Position numbers and translations under genes: made by a program. Of a stretch of DNA of 34,231 bases, positions 3,332-19,343 are shown one piece after another. Origin of the DNA: Thalassocella blandensis (lineage in GTDB: Bacteria; Pseudomonadota; Gammaproteobacteria; Pseudomonadales; Cellvibrionaceae). The notes under the pieces are model-generated. The model was not told where the DNA came from, searched no databases, and was given only the letters and a program-made list of their open reading frames with translations. Where the stretch lies: contig CAMCXE010000013.1 in assembly GCA_945882995.1 (NCBI GenBank), forward strand, positions 1-34,231. Direction: 5' to 3'. Each line of letters starts with the position of its first letter. Positions within the stretch are counted from its first letter, which is position 1.

Positions 3332-3366
3332 AAAAAAAAAGCCATGGCGGATTGCACCATGGCTTT
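3332..3366 (-). terminator. Rho-independent terminator of the DUF1552 operon
   Basis: Read on minus: AAAGCCATGG, a 9 nt loop, CCATGGCTTT, then an unbroken run of T (A run at 3332-3340 on plus). The stem is perfect (GCCATGG at 3341-3347 and CCATGGC at 3357-3363). It sits 26 nt after the DUF1552 stop codon and ends 11 nt before the truD start. Confidence 0.85.
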
Positions 3367-3391
3367 CGTAAGTACTGCTTAGAGTGAAGGC

Positions 3392-4645
3392 TTACCAGAT
3401 GCCCTGCATGGGGCCTGTAGCCAAACCGAACTTAGTGATGGTGTTGTAGCCGGCTTTCTGCGCAATGACCGTTAACAAATCGCCGTGACTTGCGCCCGTG
3501 CCACCGTTCCGGAAATCTAGCGCACGATTACCCACCAAGCCGGTGTTTCTACCGCCGGCCAAAACAAATGGAATACGGTAGTGATCATGCGCATTGGAGT
3601 GCCCCAGTTCGGATACCAACAACACAATGGTATTGTCTAGCAGCGTGCCTGCGCCATCGGGTGTTTTTGCCATTTTATCTATAAGATTGGCAATCTCGCC
3701 CATAAACCAAACCTTGCTGGGCGTGAAGGCATTGTCCGTATGCGAGGCGTCGTGATCGCCTACGCCATGACCCGGGACCTTCACTTGAGAAACCGGATGG
3801 GAATACATAAACGAAACATTGCGTACCAAATCACAGGCCAAGGCCTGCACCAGCACATCCTGCTGGGCCGCCGACAACTCGGCAACTTTGGCGAGGTTGT
3901 TGCCATCGGTGGGCAGGGCGCCGTAAAAATTGGTCGGCGCTACACAGCTGGCACCCGTGCCCGCGCCAGCACCTAAGGCCGTTACCCGTTGTTGGAGAAT
4001 CGAAAAGGACTGGGCATGCTGGTCTAAGCGGTCTTTTTCTACGGCCCCTAATTGGGTGCGCAACCGGGTTAAATCTTTGTTCACATTATCCAGCACGCGC
4101 AGCTGATCCGCGTTGGAGTTACCACCGCCACCGCCGCCGCCAGAAAACAAGGTTTTAACCGCTTGCTGCGGACTGTTTTCGTAAGGTAGACGAGTGGTGC
4201 CATTGAAGCTGATCGACTTATCTGAATAGAAACTGGCCGTAACACCCAGCTGCAGCGATTTAAACAGCGTTGGGCTTAAGCCGCCCAACACCACCTCGAT
4301 GGACGACGAGGTAGCCGCTCCGCCAGGCGCGTTATTGGCAGTTAGCACCTTGCCGGAGCCCCCTTCATGGGTGTCGCCGGTACCCACCAACCTAATGCCA
4401 TCCAAAAAAGTGCAATATTGCTTGACCTTAGCAAGCGGCATGGTCTGCGCTCGCAAGGTTGGGTTTACCCCCGCCGCCGGATGAAATTCATTCGGGGTGC
4501 AACCATTGGGGTGATAGATGAATAGCGTACGGATGGGGCGTGCTGCCTCGGCAGCCATAGCGTTGCGCGCCAGCAAAGCCGACAGCGGTAATGCTGTGCT
4601 TAGTGGGGCGGCCATAATCCCCTGAATTATTGAGCGTCGTTTCAT
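3392..4645 (-). CDS. DUF1552 family secreted protein with Tat-like signal
   Basis: 417 aa exported protein of the DUF1552 family; no member has a function I can name with confidence. The N-terminus MKRRSIIQG, a hydrophobic stretch and an AMA-AEA cleavage site near residue 32 look like a twin-arginine signal, so it probably folds before export. His/Asp-rich clusters (PGHGVGDHDASH, about 290; SELGHSNAHDHYR, about 345; GASHGD, about 388) are arranged as in the related DUF1501/sulfatase-like alkaline-phosphatase superfamily and could bind metal; this is inference. A Gly/Asn spacer (GGGGGGGN, about 170) interrupts the protein. Start: ATG at 4645 has AGAAGG 9 nt upstream; ATG at 4651 is possible but too close to it. 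It follows the DUF1592 gene by about 14 nt, so the two are co-transcribed, and it ends at a strong terminator. Confidence 0.88.
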   Translation of the reverse strand: MKRRSIIQGIMAAPLSTALPLSALLARNAMAAEAARPIRTLFIYHPNGCTPNEFHPAAGVNPTLRAQTMPLAKVKQYCTFLDGIRLVGTGDTHEGGSGKVLTANNAPGGAATSSSIEVVLGGLSPTLFKSLQLGVTASFYSDKSISFNGTTRLPYENSPQQAVKTLFSGGGGGGGNSNADQLRVLDNVNKDLTRLRTQLGAVEKDRLDQHAQSFSILQQRVTALGAGAGTGASCVAPTNFYGALPTDGNNLAKVAELSAAQQDVLVQALACDLVRNVSFMYSHPVSQVKVPGHGVGDHDASHTDNAFTPSKVWFMGEIANLIDKMAKTPDGAGTLLDNTIVLLVSELGHSNAHDHYRIPFVLAGGRNTGLVGNRALDFRNGGTGASHGDLLTVIAQKAGYNTITKFGLATGPMQGIW

Positions 4646-4659
4646 TGTCATTGCCCTTC

Positions 4660-7530
4660 TTAGTTGCGCTTAAGGAAGGATTCGGACGATACCGCTTCCA
4701 ACCAAAGTTCGTTAATGGTGTAGGCCTTGCTGCCCCAGCGAGATGCGACGTTTTGCACCACGCAATGGTCAGGCTCTTTGGCGCCACTCAAATACATTTC
4801 GAATTGCTGAGCGAAGCAGGCGCGCGCCGAAGTGGCGCCAGCAATTATGCCGGCCAATTCCTGAGTGCCGAAATAATCCTTAGAATCCGGATCAGTACGA
4901 TTAACTAGGCCGCTTAGGGTGCCGGAGTCATCGACAAACACCCCGCTTTCCGTGGTGCGGTAGGCGCCGATGGCGTCGTATCGCTCAAAGGAAAAACCGA
5001 TAGGGTCTATGTATTTGTGGCAACTCTGGCAACTCGCAACCGATGTATGTGCGGCAAAACGTTCCCGAGTGGGCTTACTAGGATCCAAGGCAACCGGAGG
5101 AATTTCCAAGCCAGGCGGCGGTGGCGGCAACTCTTGGCACAATAAACGCTCCCGCACAAACTTGCCGCGACGAATCGGTGAGGTTTGTGCCGACTGCGCA
5201 TGGCTCGCCAATACGGCGCCTAAATCCAATACGCCGCCGCGTTGCGCCCCGGCCGGCATTCTCGCAAAGGTCGCCGTGCCGCCGCCTAAACCATAAAATT
5301 GCGCTAATACATTGTTGGCGTAGGTGTAATCCGCCAACAAGAGGTCACTGAATTTACTGGTGCCATTGAAGAATAGGTCCTGAATAAACATATCGAATTC
5401 GGTATCCAAGGCCGCACGCACATTGCTGGTGAGGGTTGGGAAAGCATTGATATCTTTATTAATGGTGAGCATAGATTCAGCCCCCAACCATTGCCGTGCG
5501 AAATAGATTAACTGCTTTCTGGCCTTAGCATTCGCCAACAAACGGGTAACCTGCGCACGCAACTGGGCGGTAGTGCTTAATTGGTTCATAGCCGCCGCGG
5601 TTAGCAAGGCTGCATCGGGCGTACTGCCCCAGAAGGTGTAGGCCAACAAGCTTGCCGTTTCGTAGGGAGTCAAGGTGCCGTTAACGCCTATTTCTGAACG
5701 ATAGAGGAAGTGAGGCGAAGCCAACATGCCGCGAATCACAAATCGGGTACCTTGGGCGGCGTCTGTTCCATACATAAAGAGATCAATATAGTCGGCCTTT
5801 TCTAGCGCCGTCAGCGGCCTGCGGAACGCCTTGAGGCCGAAGGCATCAACAATGGTGCCGGCACAAACCGTAGTTTTTTGATTGCAGGTGTTGATGCCGG
5901 TAAGGCTCACGGTATCCGCTAATATACCTGCGGCATCCCAATACTTGCTCATATGTGTTTCGCTGACAGCGGCGGCCTTCGCGTTATTGTCATAACCCGC
6001 CACAATACCGGCAATAGGCAGGTTGCCCGCTAGCGTAGAATTGATACCAAACAAGTCATTAACGGTGTTGCCGTATTCTTTGGCAGTGAGTAGGCGCAAC
6101 TGCTTGGGCAGCGCCGCTTCTACTTGACCACAAGCCGTGGAAGGGGTGAAATTTAAGATAATAAAATCTTCAATCGCCGCTGCACAATTGGCATCACAAA
6201 CCACGCCATATTCACTGACCATGTCTGGGATTTTAGTGGTGGCCACATAAGGCTTGCTATAAGCCTCTTTGTTTAATGCGGGAAAGTTAGGTGCTTTACC
6301 TTCACCATTAACACCATGACATCTAGCGCACTGAGCGCCATACAACGCCTTACCATCCAAACCACCGGAACTACTTGAGCTACCGGAAGAGGAGGATGAA
6401 GAGGAGCCACCACCCGTTTTTAAGCTATTCAAAAAAGCCGCAACGTCAGCCGCGCAGCCATCAATACAGGCCGGCATGGTTCTTCGACTCATCACCTCGT
6501 GAATGTATTTGGGTAGGCTTGCTCGAGCCGCAGCCACCTTGAAATTGTTAACGTCGAAATTGATGTGCGCGGAGGTTTCGTGGCAACCAGAACACCGTTC
6601 GCTATACAGCTGCTCACCACGCGCCGCATTGCCAACTACAGACCAACCAGCGCCGGAAGAGCTAGACGAGATTGACGATGAGGAACGGCTGGACGACGAG
6701 CGGCTAGATGATGAACTGCTCGATGAGTACCTAGAACTACTTGAACTACTTGAACTACCACCGGCCGCACCGCGCACCACTATGCCGGATAAGGTCGCAT
6801 TGTTCACCGACGCCGAAAAGTTCAGGGTTAACTTGCCATCAGTTACCACAATGTTTTTAAAGGTGAGGTCTGCAGCCGTATTTCGACCATAAGTGGAAAA
6901 CAAGTCGATATTGTTGACTACCGTTACGCCCTCAATGGCCACGCTCATTCTGCGCATGCCAATGCTTGTCGCCCATTGCTCATTAAGATTGAGAGTTACA
7001 TCAAAGGAACCGTTAGTGACCGGCAGGTCATAGGTGAACGACCCGTACCGCTGACTTTGATAGAGAGGGTCATCGTCTGTGCCGTTAATGGCATCGGTAG
7101 TGTTAGCCGTGGCGTTTGTGACACCTTGGGCGCTAGTTAACAAATTGGCAGCAGGCACAGAGTACTGAATACCCGACAAGGTTTTATAGGCATTCCCAGC
7201 CGCACGAAGTGCGTAGAGAATCACACTACCCGAACTGGAGGAGGCTGACGCACTGGAAATAGCGGTAGAGCTACTGAAGCTGCTCGAGCTAGAAGAGCTG
7301 CTCGAGCGAATAGCGCTAGAAGAACTGCTCGAGCGAATAGCGCTAGAAGAGCTGCTGGACGTTGAAGGGCTACTTGAACTGCCCTCTCCCTCCAAGCCAG
7401 GGCCGCCGCAGTTTGCTAGCACCAAGGCCAACAAACTTGACGTGCCCACCGCCTTTAGGGCCGATAGCAGTGAAGCCGGCTTACGCGCTACTCCACGGCA
7501 GGCGTCTGAACGACTTACATGTAATTTCAT
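4660..7530 (-). CDS. Three-heme DUF1592/1588/1585 poly-Ser lipoprotein with malectin-like domain
   Basis: 956 aa predicted outer-membrane lipoprotein. In order: signal with lipobox-like LANC (Cys41; Asn at -1 is unusual); poly-Ser linker 50-101; malectin/CBM-like beta domain 103-252; poly-Ser linker 259-293; cytochrome c domain with CSGCH (313-317); short Ser linker; second cytochrome c with CARCH (401-405). A C-terminal half of DUF1587 (about 432-500), DUF1595 (FRRPLTALE, about 560), DUF1592 (about 600-740), DUF1588 with CQSCH (834-838) followed by DPIGFSFERYDAIG, and DUF1585 comes after. Both cytochrome domains carry an extra CxxxC (CIDGC, CDANC), probably a disulfide. DUF1592 proteins usually pair with a DUF1552 or DUF1501 partner, as here. 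The reaction is unknown. The malectin-like domain suggests carbohydrate binding and the hemes suggest redox chemistry; both are inferences. Start: ATG at 7530, preferred over an upstream TTG; GTG at 7539 is also possible. Confidence 0.9.
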   Translation of the reverse strand: MKLHVSRSDACRGVARKPASLLSALKAVGTSSLLALVLANCGGPGLEGEGSSSSPSTSSSSSSAIRSSSSSSAIRSSSSSSSSSFSSSTAISSASASSSSGSVILYALRAAGNAYKTLSGIQYSVPAANLLTSAQGVTNATANTTDAINGTDDDPLYQSQRYGSFTYDLPVTNGSFDVTLNLNEQWATSIGMRRMSVAIEGVTVVNNIDLFSTYGRNTAADLTFKNIVVTDGKLTLNFSASVNNATLSGIVVRGAAGGSSSSSSSSRYSSSSSSSSRSSSSRSSSSISSSSSGAGWSVVGNAARGEQLYSERCSGCHETSAHINFDVNNFKVAAARASLPKYIHEVMSRRTMPACIDGCAADVAAFLNSLKTGGGSSSSSSSGSSSSSGGLDGKALYGAQCARCHGVNGEGKAPNFPALNKEAYSKPYVATTKIPDMVSEYGVVCDANCAAAIEDFIILNFTPSTACGQVEAALPKQLRLLTAKEYGNTVNDLFGINSTLAGNLPIAGIVAGYDNNAKAAAVSETHMSKYWDAAGILADTVSLTGINTCNQKTTVCAGTIVDAFGLKAFRRPLTALEKADYIDLFMYGTDAAQGTRFVIRGMLASPHFLYRSEIGVNGTLTPYETASLLAYTFWGSTPDAALLTAAAMNQLSTTAQLRAQVTRLLANAKARKQLIYFARQWLGAESMLTINKDINAFPTLTSNVRAALDTEFDMFIQDLFFNGTSKFSDLLLADYTYANNVLAQFYGLGGGTATFARMPAGAQRGGVLDLGAVLASHAQSAQTSPIRRGKFVRERLLCQELPPPPPGLEIPPVALDPSKPTRERFAAHTSVASCQSCHKYIDPIGFSFERYDAIGAYRTTESGVFVDDSGTLSGLVNRTDPDSKDYFGTQELAGIIAGATSARACFAQQFEMYLSGAKEPDHCVVQNVASRWGSKAYTINELWLEAVSSESFLKRN
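7298..7351. repeat. 27 bp in-frame tandem repeat in poly-Ser linker
   Basis: Two nearly identical 27 bp units (7298-7324 and 7325-7351), each encoding SSSSSSAIR on minus. The unit length is a multiple of three, so copy-number changes would alter the linker length without a frameshift. Confidence 0.8.
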
Positions 7531-7874
7531 AATATCCACGTCTTCTTCCCCTTGAGCCAAGGCTCAAACCGGTGATTAGTTAATTATTTAATGCATAACG
7601 CAAAAGCTAACTTCTTTTCCAAGTGCCATTGTGCTGCAAAACCCGACGATCGTGGAATAGAGTTTGTCACACTTAATTAAAAATCTAGGTAGCACTTTGC
7701 GCATTTGCTAACTGGCGCTCAAAATAACGCTTTCGACCTTGCTTCAAGCAACCGGAATATTTCTTCAAAACAATTTGGTTAGGCCCTCTTTGAGGCGGCG
7801 GCTGCAAATGCGGGGCAATTGGGCGAAGTGCCCACCTATGCGGACAAGCCATCTCCCATGGGGTGCGGCGCCGC
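7531..7874. other. Intergenic region upstream of the DUF1592 operon
   Basis: 344 bp between the end of ispF and the DUF1592 lipoprotein gene, both on minus. It must hold the end of the ispF transcript and probably the promoter of the DUF1592/DUF1552 operon. An AT-rich part (7575-7600 and 7672-7690) lies on the promoter side. I see short hairpins (GGGCGAAGTGCCC near 7822) but no clear terminator and no unambiguous -35/-10 pair. No convincing ORF. Confidence 0.5.
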
Positions 7875-16380: not shown

Positions 16381-19170
16381 TCAGGGATAAGTTTGCGTGA
16401 GCACCAACTTTTCTCTGTGGAATATTTCCACCTTGGCCACGGCCACAAACACTGTGCTGGCAACAAAATAGACCGGACTCATAACGTCCGGGTGATCGAG
16501 CTGTAAAAGCTGTAAATCCGTGTGTAGCTGCTGCCCATCTGTTGCGGTGACGGTCATGTGATAGTCGCTTTTTTGGCCACCAATTTCAGGAGCCTGCTGC
16601 GCAGGGCTGACGCGCCTCAGGCTAACCACGCCATCCGGATCTATACGTCCACTGATATAAAGACTCTGTAACAAAGGCGCCGCGGCTGCATTGCCAGAAG
16701 CAGCAAACGCAGTGGCAAACGCCATTGGCGGGTGCGCCTTTAAATAGGTTTGCACGCGGCCATAGCTGAAATCGGAAACATGCTGCGGATAACAGTAGCT
16801 CATCACATCTGATGTGCCTGCGGGCGAAATTAGCGTATTCAAGCTGTAATTAATACCCACACTGCCAATAGTGTTGGTGGCGTAGGGATAATCCCATTGC
16901 AAGCCGCTGGGGTGACCACAGTCAACGTGATATAGGCCGAACATATGCCCCAGCTCGTGCGCCATGGTGGTGCCGTTGGGATCGCTGAGTCGATCAATGC
17001 CCACCCCCACACGCCGACCAACATAGGCGATACCGCCCACTTCAAAATTGGGCGCCGACACATTAACAACGCCGTAGTAGATTGCAGGGTCATTCTCTTG
17101 CGCTTGCAAATCAGCCAGTTGCGCCAAAGCATCATCCGGTGAGGTAAAGCTCATGTCCAGTGGACTGTGCGTGCGCACTACCACTTTCGCTAGGGGCCAA
17201 ATGGTTTTGAGATTGCGCTCTACAGCCGCTGCAGTGGGTAGGCTCGGCGTTAAACCACCAGAGGTAATGGGTACCAAGGTGACATAGAGTGTGGTGCTGG
17301 CGCCAACTTTAGGCGCCAGCGTTTTACTGACGCCGTTGGCCAGATTGATTTGCACACTGAGGCCTGGCTGCACCCATGCCGCCGGCACTACGGCTGAGTA
17401 GCTGCGATCTAGCCGCTGAAATTCCAACAAACTGGGCAAGCGGCTGGGTTTAGCTAGGGCAAGGGTTTGGCTTTGCCCATTCAAGCGCAGAGTAAGGGTG
17501 CCACTGGGTACAATGGTGGGCTGGCTGACAATCACATGGATACGCAATAAGGCTTCTCGGCTAGCCACTAGCAGTGGGTTGCTTTTCACCACGCTCTGGC
17601 CCCAATCCATGCTCTCGATATAGAAGGTTGGCAGCGAGCCCGCCTCCGCGCTACGCACAATGTCTAACCGCTTCACCCAGCGCCCGCCCAAGCCATCTTC
17701 GAAGACCATGTTTTTGCCTGTGTCCACGAGCTGGCTGTCGTACATCAGACCAGAGTTCAGCCCGCAGTTCTCAATCCGTACCAAAGGCTCCGCCGGCAAT
17801 TGCAAAGTGAGATCGCCGTGTAATTCACAGCGACATGGCGCTCCATAGGGAGCAGCTGGCGTGATACTCCAGTTAACGTCCAGTAGGCTGCTGGTAGTTT
17901 GTTGCGCTTTCAGTTGCAGGCTTGCATTGGCAAGGGTATCCGCACAATTTTGTCGCCGTTGCCCCGCATCCGTGAAATCCACCTGCACGCCTCTACTACG
18001 CAGATTGGCCATGTCCAATAAGGGTCGAGAGTACCCCTGAGTGTTCAAACACAGCGCATCGCCACCGCCCAAGCTCACCGTACTGGCCGCCTGAAGGCCG
18101 GTGCTGAGCAGCGGGGCAAGATCATTGACGAACGTATCGCTTAAGGAAAGATAGCGCAGGCCACCCGCCCCTTCTAAAAATGCCAAGGAAGCAACCGATG
18201 AGCGATCGAAACTTAACGACTCCAGCGATAATCTCGCCAATGCGGATAAGTCGCTAAGCGGATTGCGGCTAAGATCGAGGTATTTCAAACCCGTTAGGCC
18301 GTGCAGCGGCGCAACATCGGCTATTTGATTGCCCGCCAACACGAGGCGCTGCAAATTCTTAGCCCCCTCCAAACCGACTAGGCTCAGGATATTGCGGTTG
18401 CTGGCATCCAGCTGCTGCAGACTAGCCAAATGCCCGGGGCCAACCGGACTATCCGCCGCCACGCCCAAGGCACTGCGAATACTGGCCTTAAGGTTCACAT
18501 CAGGAATATCCACGTCACCCGCGAAGGTGAAATTCACTTGCAATGTGCAAGGGGTTAACAGGGGTGCGGTAACAAAGCGGTTACCCGTCAGCTCCCCAGG
18601 GCAACCGGTGAGGAGAGAAACGTTATAATCCAGCAGGGGGTTAACCACAAACTCTACACTGGCACCCGGTGCCACCAGCTGTAGCGCAGGCTCAACACTA
18701 CCGCCGGTGCCTGCCAGCGCCGATATTCGCAGTGCTGCCATCCTACTGGAGCTGGTAGTTGAAGACGTCGACGAAGAAGAAGACCCAGCGCCAACACTCG
18801 AGCTTGTGGAAGAGCTGGACGAATTACCCGCGGCACCGCTGCTACTGGATGAGGAGCTGTTTGAGCCAGATGAAGAAATGCTCGAACTCGAAGGCAGACT
18901 GTCCGATGAAGGACTCCCGGATGAAGTGCTCGTTGAATTAGAGGCAGAACTGGAAGAGTTGGAAGTACTGGAAGAGTTGGAAGTACTGGAAGAGTTGGAA
19001 GAGCTGGAAGAGCTGCAAGAGCTGGACGAACTTGAAGAGCTGGAAGAACTGGAAGATCCAAGGATCGAGCCGCTAGAACTAGCCCCAGACGTTGACGAGT
19101 CCAGCGATTTACCACCGCACCCAGCCAATAAGACCAGCATTAAACCGCCGAGACAAAGCTTTTTTAACAC
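16381..19170 (-). CDS. Poly-Ser LRR lipoprotein with metzincin zinc protease domain
   Basis: 929 aa predicted surface lipoprotein. The signal ends in a perfect lipobox LLAGC (Cys18). A Ser/Asn/Thr linker of about 135 residues (20-155) follows, then a bacterial-repeat beta domain (GTGGSVEP...LLTGCPGELTG, about 160-225). Internalin-like leucine-rich repeats come next (about 245-375: LVLAGNQIADVAPLHGLTGLKYLDLS). A long region with no recognised domain precedes the metzincin motif HELGHMFGLYH (His738, Glu739, His742, His748), with a likely Met-turn at SDVMSY (Met790). The three His bind zinc and Glu is the catalytic base, so this should be an active secreted peptidase; the substrate is unknown. 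Start: GTG at 19170 with GGGGA 7 nt upstream, placing the signal peptide at the N-terminus; a GTG 13 codons earlier is unlikely. Confidence 0.88.
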   Translation of the reverse strand: MLKKLCLGGLMLVLLAGCGGKSLDSSTSGASSSGSILGSSSSSSSSSSSSSCSSSSSSNSSSTSNSSSTSNSSSSASNSTSTSSGSPSSDSLPSSSSISSSGSNSSSSSSSGAAGNSSSSSTSSSVGAGSSSSSTSSTTSSSRMAALRISALAGTGGSVEPALQLVAPGASVEFVVNPLLDYNVSLLTGCPGELTGNRFVTAPLLTPCTLQVNFTFAGDVDIPDVNLKASIRSALGVAADSPVGPGHLASLQQLDASNRNILSLVGLEGAKNLQRLVLAGNQIADVAPLHGLTGLKYLDLSRNPLSDLSALARLSLESLSFDRSSVASLAFLEGAGGLRYLSLSDTFVNDLAPLLSTGLQAASTVSLGGGDALCLNTQGYSRPLLDMANLRSRGVQVDFTDAGQRRQNCADTLANASLQLKAQQTTSSLLDVNWSITPAAPYGAPCRCELHGDLTLQLPAEPLVRIENCGLNSGLMYDSQLVDTGKNMVFEDGLGGRWVKRLDIVRSAEAGSLPTFYIESMDWGQSVVKSNPLLVASREALLRIHVIVSQPTIVPSGTLTLRLNGQSQTLALAKPSRLPSLLEFQRLDRSYSAVVPAAWVQPGLSVQINLANGVSKTLAPKVGASTTLYVTLVPITSGGLTPSLPTAAAVERNLKTIWPLAKVVVRTHSPLDMSFTSPDDALAQLADLQAQENDPAIYYGVVNVSAPNFEVGGIAYVGRRVGVGIDRLSDPNGTTMAHELGHMFGLYHVDCGHPSGLQWDYPYATNTIGSVGINYSLNTLISPAGTSDVMSYCYPQHVSDFSYGRVQTYLKAHPPMAFATAFAASGNAAAAPLLQSLYISGRIDPDGVVSLRRVSPAQQAPEIGGQKSDYHMTVTATDGQQLHTDLQLLQLDHPDVMSPVYFVASTVFVAVAKVEIFHREKLVLTQTYP
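18953..18988. repeat. 18 bp tandem repeat in poly-Ser linker
   Basis: Two exact copies of GAAGAGTTGGAAGTACTG, followed by degenerate GAAGAGCTG units to about 19060. It encodes Ser/Thr/Asn on minus, and the unit keeps frame. On plus it creates a long Glu/Leu-rich ORF that is an artefact. Confidence 0.85.
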
Positions 19171-19343
19171 GCAAGATTCCCCATTTTTGCCCCTGCGGAA
19201 CCAAGGCACACAACATCAAAACTTAAACTTAACCCCTTTAAGTGGGCGAAGAATCCCCAGTTACACCAAGGATGCACGTTTATATGTTACCCCCCTAGGT
19301 GTAGGCATACTGCCGACCAACCCACACTTTTACGCTTCTGGGC

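Follow-up and report, generated by a model that had tools for sequence, protein, structure and literature searches.

Proteins that join an X183-type cytochrome to an X132 module have been described from Cellvibrio japonicus (Cbp2D) and Teredinibacter turnerae (TERTU_2913 and TERTU_3803) (PMC8981238, PMC10916295). Cbp2D has the architecture CBM2-X158/YceI-FN3-X183-X132, and DUF1587 has been named in it (PMC8981238). Deletion of cbp2D impairs growth on insoluble cellulose (PMC12542752), and a 2025 study of Cbp2D suggests a novel cutting mechanism. In vitro, the cytochrome domain CjX183 is able to activate two LPMOs (PMC8981238); published tests of the isolated TtX183 domains gave no support for LPMO activation, nor did the pf08450-X173 domain bind PQQ (PMC10916295). 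A Cellvibrio DUF1592 protein with a CBM2 has been found in the metasecretome of a lignocellulose-degrading community (PMC6004670), and PSCyt3 genes of Verrucomicrobia are known to neighbour a family of unknown genes (PMC5615132). A gene pair of this kind in Thalassocella blandensis had been put forward as a candidate for an undescribed system, which, given these publications, it is not wholly.

A gene pair between ispF and truD

The window, a 34,231-nucleotide stretch of the T. blandensis genome (contig CAMCXE010000013.1), carries on its minus strand the order ispD-ispF, a DUF1592-type gene, a DUF1552 gene, truD, nlpD and rpoS. The DUF1592-type gene comes first and is separated from its partner by 8 bp. 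The following features were assigned:

4660–7560, minus strand: DUF1592-family multihaem lipoprotein gene; the open reading frame begins at a TTG at 7560, and the likely start is the ATG at 7530
7408–7530, minus strand: lipoprotein signal peptide with lipobox LANC and Cys51, whose column is nearly invariant in 42 relatives
6796–7218, minus strand: malectin domain, residues 115–255 (PF11721, E=6e-18; PDB malectins 2k46 and 2jwp)
6424–6639, minus strand: first cytochrome c domain, X183 type, residues 308–379, CSGCH at 323 (8q1w_A, E=0.022; CxxCH)
6145–6357, minus strand: second cytochrome c domain, X183 type, residues 402–472, CARCH at 411 (PF13442, 8e-11; 8q1v_A, E=0.0016)
4675–6096, minus strand: X132 module, DUF1587-DUF1595-DUF1592-DUF1588-(DUF1585) (Pfam; same series in Cbp2D)
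5017–5031, minus strand: third haem motif, CQSCH, residues 844–848, within X132, invariant in 113 relatives
3392–4651, minus strand: gene for a DUF1552 (HXXSHH) protein with a Tat-type leader (Pfam; His95, His300, His304, His355 and Glu119 conserved)
3337–3367, minus strand: intrinsic terminator 3' of the DUF1552 gene, with a 13-bp stem and T tract
2110–2342, no strand: truD-nlpD gap, the surE-pcm position, about 2 kb in relatives (gene order in relatives)

The original prediction of a two-gene operon with its own terminator, interrupting a conserved core block between ispF and truD, agrees with this arrangement. The interval given for it, 4645–7530, covers the DUF1592-type gene only. The terminator draws its weight from its stem length and T tract, as terminator-like sites overall are no commoner than in shuffled sequence. 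The insertion is not the only change to the block: neither surE nor pcm stands between truD and nlpD, which lie 233 bp apart in the window as against about 2 kb in most relatives (about 1 kb in one). SurE has no match anywhere in the genome; as the draft is 97% complete, the gene is likely, though not certainly, absent altogether. PCMT matches are weak and partial, and lie elsewhere than truD-nlpD. The ispF-truD-nlpD block has thus acquired the pair, and surE and, probably, pcm have dropped out of it.

The truD regions of 20 relatives were compared, a few of whose contigs lack one marker. Wherever both ispF and truD could be read, the two genes adjoin or lie at most about 1 kb from each other, and no DUF pair separates them, which supports the accessory status claimed for the pair. 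Base composition gave no signal of a foreign origin, the GC content of the pair resembling that of neighbouring genes. Another pair of the window genome (L013:5685-10085) directly follows lptB in a kdsC-lptA-lptB block, again beside core genes. Elsewhere in the window, positions 16381-19209 encode a Ser-rich lipoprotein that combines leucine-rich repeats with a peptidase M66-like domain, in which HELGHMFGLYH occurs.

Domains of the lipoprotein and its DUF1552 partner

The lipoprotein has CxxCH motifs at residues 323, 411 and 844, its lipobox at residues 48–51, and Ser-rich linkers. Pfam recognizes DUF1592 (4e-36), DUF1588 (1e-33), DUF1587 (1e-14) and DUF1595 (2e-14). The three CxxCH haem motifs, malectin-like domain, poly-Ser linkers and four of the five DUF families first read from the DNA are thus present; the fifth, DUF1585, stays under the cut-off (17.1 versus 25.8 bits). 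In phmmer comparisons, the two cytochromes matched the crystallised X183 domains of TERTU_2913 (8q1v, E=0.0016; 8q1w, E=0.022). A 667-residue model of the lipoprotein was good over X132 and poor over both cytochromes; its top fold match was 8q1v (E=0.76, probability 0.97), and a structure search with it found nothing in the PDB matching the X132 fold. CcmF, for haem c maturation, is present in the genome. NCBIfam offered no useful family for either protein of the pair. The X132 region of close relatives (L132:5693-7990) weakly matches DUF1800 (E=5e-6), a hint of kinship with DUF1800 proteins.

The DUF1552 protein was assigned with a Pfam E-value of 1e-43, and its twin arginine is kept in 98-99% of 119 relatives, in line with the Tat-type export first suggested. 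A sequence search of the PDB gave no credible relatives. The leading fold matches of its model (pLDDT 81.7) are mostly sulfatases, phosphatases and related members of the alkaline-phosphatase/sulfatase superfamily (E 6e-5 to about 1e-2), with modest TM-scores of about 0.3-0.43, and hhalign against the superfamily aligned the C-terminal part with its DNT-SD motif at E=2.6e-5 over only 85 C-terminal columns. The predicted fold resembles that superfamily. The conserved residues differ from it: His95 and His300 are invariant (119/119 each), as is an acidic residue at position 119 (119/119), His304 is kept in 116/119 and His355 in 117/119, and position 348, in the SDxG motif, is acidic in just 65/119. 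By motif reading, the profile alignment being limited to those 85 columns, the invariant His95 falls close to where sulfatases have their nucleophile. The label of hydrolase first given to the protein is therefore doubtful, and the four histidines and acidic residue may form one metal site.

The DUF1592-DUF1552 pair across genomes

The co-occurrence of the two families, described as known at the outset, is evident from neighbour mapping. Among the 136 DUF1552 open reading frames collected, from loci some of which overlap, 126 adjoin a DUF1592 frame, 123 of them directly downstream with a median gap of 12 bp; several of those unpaired lie at contig ends or are fragmented. Because most loci were found through DUF1552, the count speaks more for DUF1552 having a partner than for the reverse. 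Across 103 pairs, the distances of the two partners correlate with r=0.95, and across 21 paralogues within a single genome with r=0.81; neighbouring genes inherited together co-diverge in this way even without contact. Within the window genome there are five DUF1552 loci (six matches, two being pieces of one frame), four clear DUF1592 genes and an additional weak DUF1592 relative paired with DUF1501 instead. When the window genome was taken together with 37 relatives, DUF1552 exceeded the cut-off in 14 of the 38, and a Marinagarivorans-type genome (G010) holds 24 matches. A search for a substrate theme in flanking genes, by a Pfam tally of 108 neighbours, found none dominant, with a few redoxin and DUF3570 genes. 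In three genomes a redoxin and a DUF3570 gene follow TERTU_2913-like pairs (L101:7739-9646, L102:10661-12643, L105:7113-9015).

The closest likeness is to Cbp2D itself. One genome (G039), taken as C. japonicus from the identity of its Cbp2D (7b21 match and published length), encodes at L214:4425-7793 a protein of 1122 aa with CBM2 and YceI, identical to 7b21 over X183 apart from the final aligned residues, at which the tail of the construct starts. A CBM2-YceI protein of Cbp2E type lies upstream and a DUF1552 gene 47 bp downstream, giving the order cbp2E-cbp2D-DUF1552, and a DUF1552 gene directly follows the cbp2D-type gene in the other such Cellvibrio loci sampled too. The window protein shares with Cbp2D the X183-type cytochrome, DUF1587-1595-1592-1588, Ser-rich linkers and the downstream DUF1552 gene, but has malectin instead of CBM2 and YceI, two copies of X183, and a lipobox. 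In the window, Pfam and the neighbouring genes gave none of the features of a strict Cbp2D orthologue (CBM2, YceI/X158, a cbp2E neighbour). On its X183 domains and an X132 with its own CxxCH, the window protein would be classed with the X183-X132 (Cbp2D/TERTU_2913) redox proteins. What is new here is a malectin variant of the Cbp2D-like redox pair, together with the adjacency of DUF1552 to cbp2D, of which the searchable literature on cbp2D (supplements and subscription papers lay outside the search) makes no mention.

The T. turnerae proteins likewise share X183, X132 and an adjoining DUF1552 gene: L102 (G023), with X122 and X183 domains that match 8q2a and 8q1v, is identical or nearly identical to TERTU_2913, and L103 has the TERTU_3803 architecture. 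They differ in carrying X122 (Cip1-like) or CBM10/SGL/GSDH/CBM2 modules, and in L102 redoxin and DUF3570 follow DUF1552. DUF1592-DUF1552 pairs were also recovered from contigs of Verrucomicrobia and Planctomycetes, whose PSCyt3-PSD proteins (PMC5615132) have the same Pfam series, although their DUF1552 proteins are about 22-25% identical to that of the window and other CBM types are reported for them (PMC5615132). One locus (L090:4423-8961) encodes a fusion of a DUF1592 protein with a cytochrome and a GH5 cellulase domain. Pairs of DUF1501 proteins with other PSCyt/PSD proteins similarly place a protein with a Tat-type leader next to one that is Ser-rich and carries CxxCH, as in a Ser-rich CxxCH lipoprotein-like gene and DUF1501 gene of the window genome (L016:3849-7685), but DUF1501 is a separate family (PF07394) without a DUF1552 match.

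A candidate redox complex and its alternatives

The best-supported reading is the one first advanced, a polysaccharide-directed, electron-transferring surface complex, for which the X183-type cytochromes, the malectin domain and homologues carrying CBM2, CBM26, CBM60, CBM4_9, YceI or GH5 all speak. This reading, as a complex of the Cbp2D/TERTU_2913 type with X132-DUF1552 as its catalytic core, we consider an even call. In such a complex the lipoprotein, to judge from its lipobox, would be anchored in the outer membrane and displayed at the surface, malectin would bind a glycan, the presumed substrate, and the two X183 cytochromes would wire electrons to the X132 haem, with the solved homologues as guide and the direction of flow likewise presumed. 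The Tat-exported DUF1552 protein may bind X132, as near-obligate adjacency and co-divergence suggest, and would probably bind a metal through His95, His300, His304, His355 and Glu119, given their conservation. The binding and electron-feeding modules (CBMs, YceI, GSDH-like) vary around what would be a constant core of X132 and DUF1552, and because of this constancy the core is proposed to perform redox chemistry on polysaccharide. We argue that it would need no LPMO, since no PF03067 (LPMO_10) match, and hence no AA10 LPMO, was found in the 97% complete genome. Against the redox complex count the published results on the isolated TtX183 domains and on pf08450-X173 (PMC10916295), the lack of a clear glycan theme in the flanking genes and the modest TM-scores. 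The bolder proposal, that X132 and DUF1552 form a new class of oxidative polysaccharide-attacking enzyme, a hydrolase fold turned haem-wire-fed, LPMO-free redox metal enzyme and the missing third part of Cbp2D/Cbp2E, is tentative and on the whole unlikely.

The absence of LPMO_10 equally disfavours a simple electron-donor role in this organism, and with it the account in which the lipoprotein feeds AA10 LPMOs, as proposed for Cbp2D, with DUF1552 serving in assembly or docking. The activity of CjX183 speaks for that account, as does the co-occurrence of DUF1552 with LPMO_10 (12/14 versus 4/24 of the 38 genomes, Fisher p=8e-5, phylogeny uncorrected), perhaps only since both mark polysaccharide degraders. 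However, G010 has one weak LPMO match for its 24 DUF1552 matches, and deletion of lpmo10B is milder than that of cbp2D/E (PMC12542752), which leaves the donor role unlikely. A genuine hydrolase of sulfatase or phosphatase type, targeted to glycan by the lipoprotein with electron transfer secondary, would suit the superfamily fold and C-terminal motif; the poorly kept SDxG acidic residue, the invariant histidine near the nucleophile position and the invariant haem, which would be left unexplained, make it decidedly unlikely. One haem protein with one dedicated, co-diverging, Tat-exported partner also recalls MauG by analogy, X132 then oxidatively modifying the exported DUF1552 protein, which would act on the glycan; yet the sequence and fold searches matched X132 with neither MauG nor cytochrome c peroxidases, and we consider this very improbable. 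Position alone would favour a housekeeping role within the ispF-truD block. It was rejected on the gene order of relatives, none of which has the pair at a readable ispF-truD junction; 24 of the 38 genomes have no DUF1552 above the cut-off, and the pair has its own terminator, so that such a role can practically be set aside.

Because the same DUF1592-DUF1552 pairing occurs at cbp2D, the pair points to a putative component of a machinery for the oxidative breakdown of polysaccharides. Growth on insoluble cellulose requires Cbp2D, and the DUF1552 gene in the cbp2D cluster offers a direct test of how Cbp2D acts. With X132 linked both to the PSD module of planctomycetes and to DUF1552 as a near-obligate partner, the question of Cbp2D extends to the Planctomycetes and Verrucomicrobia, where such pairs are abundant.
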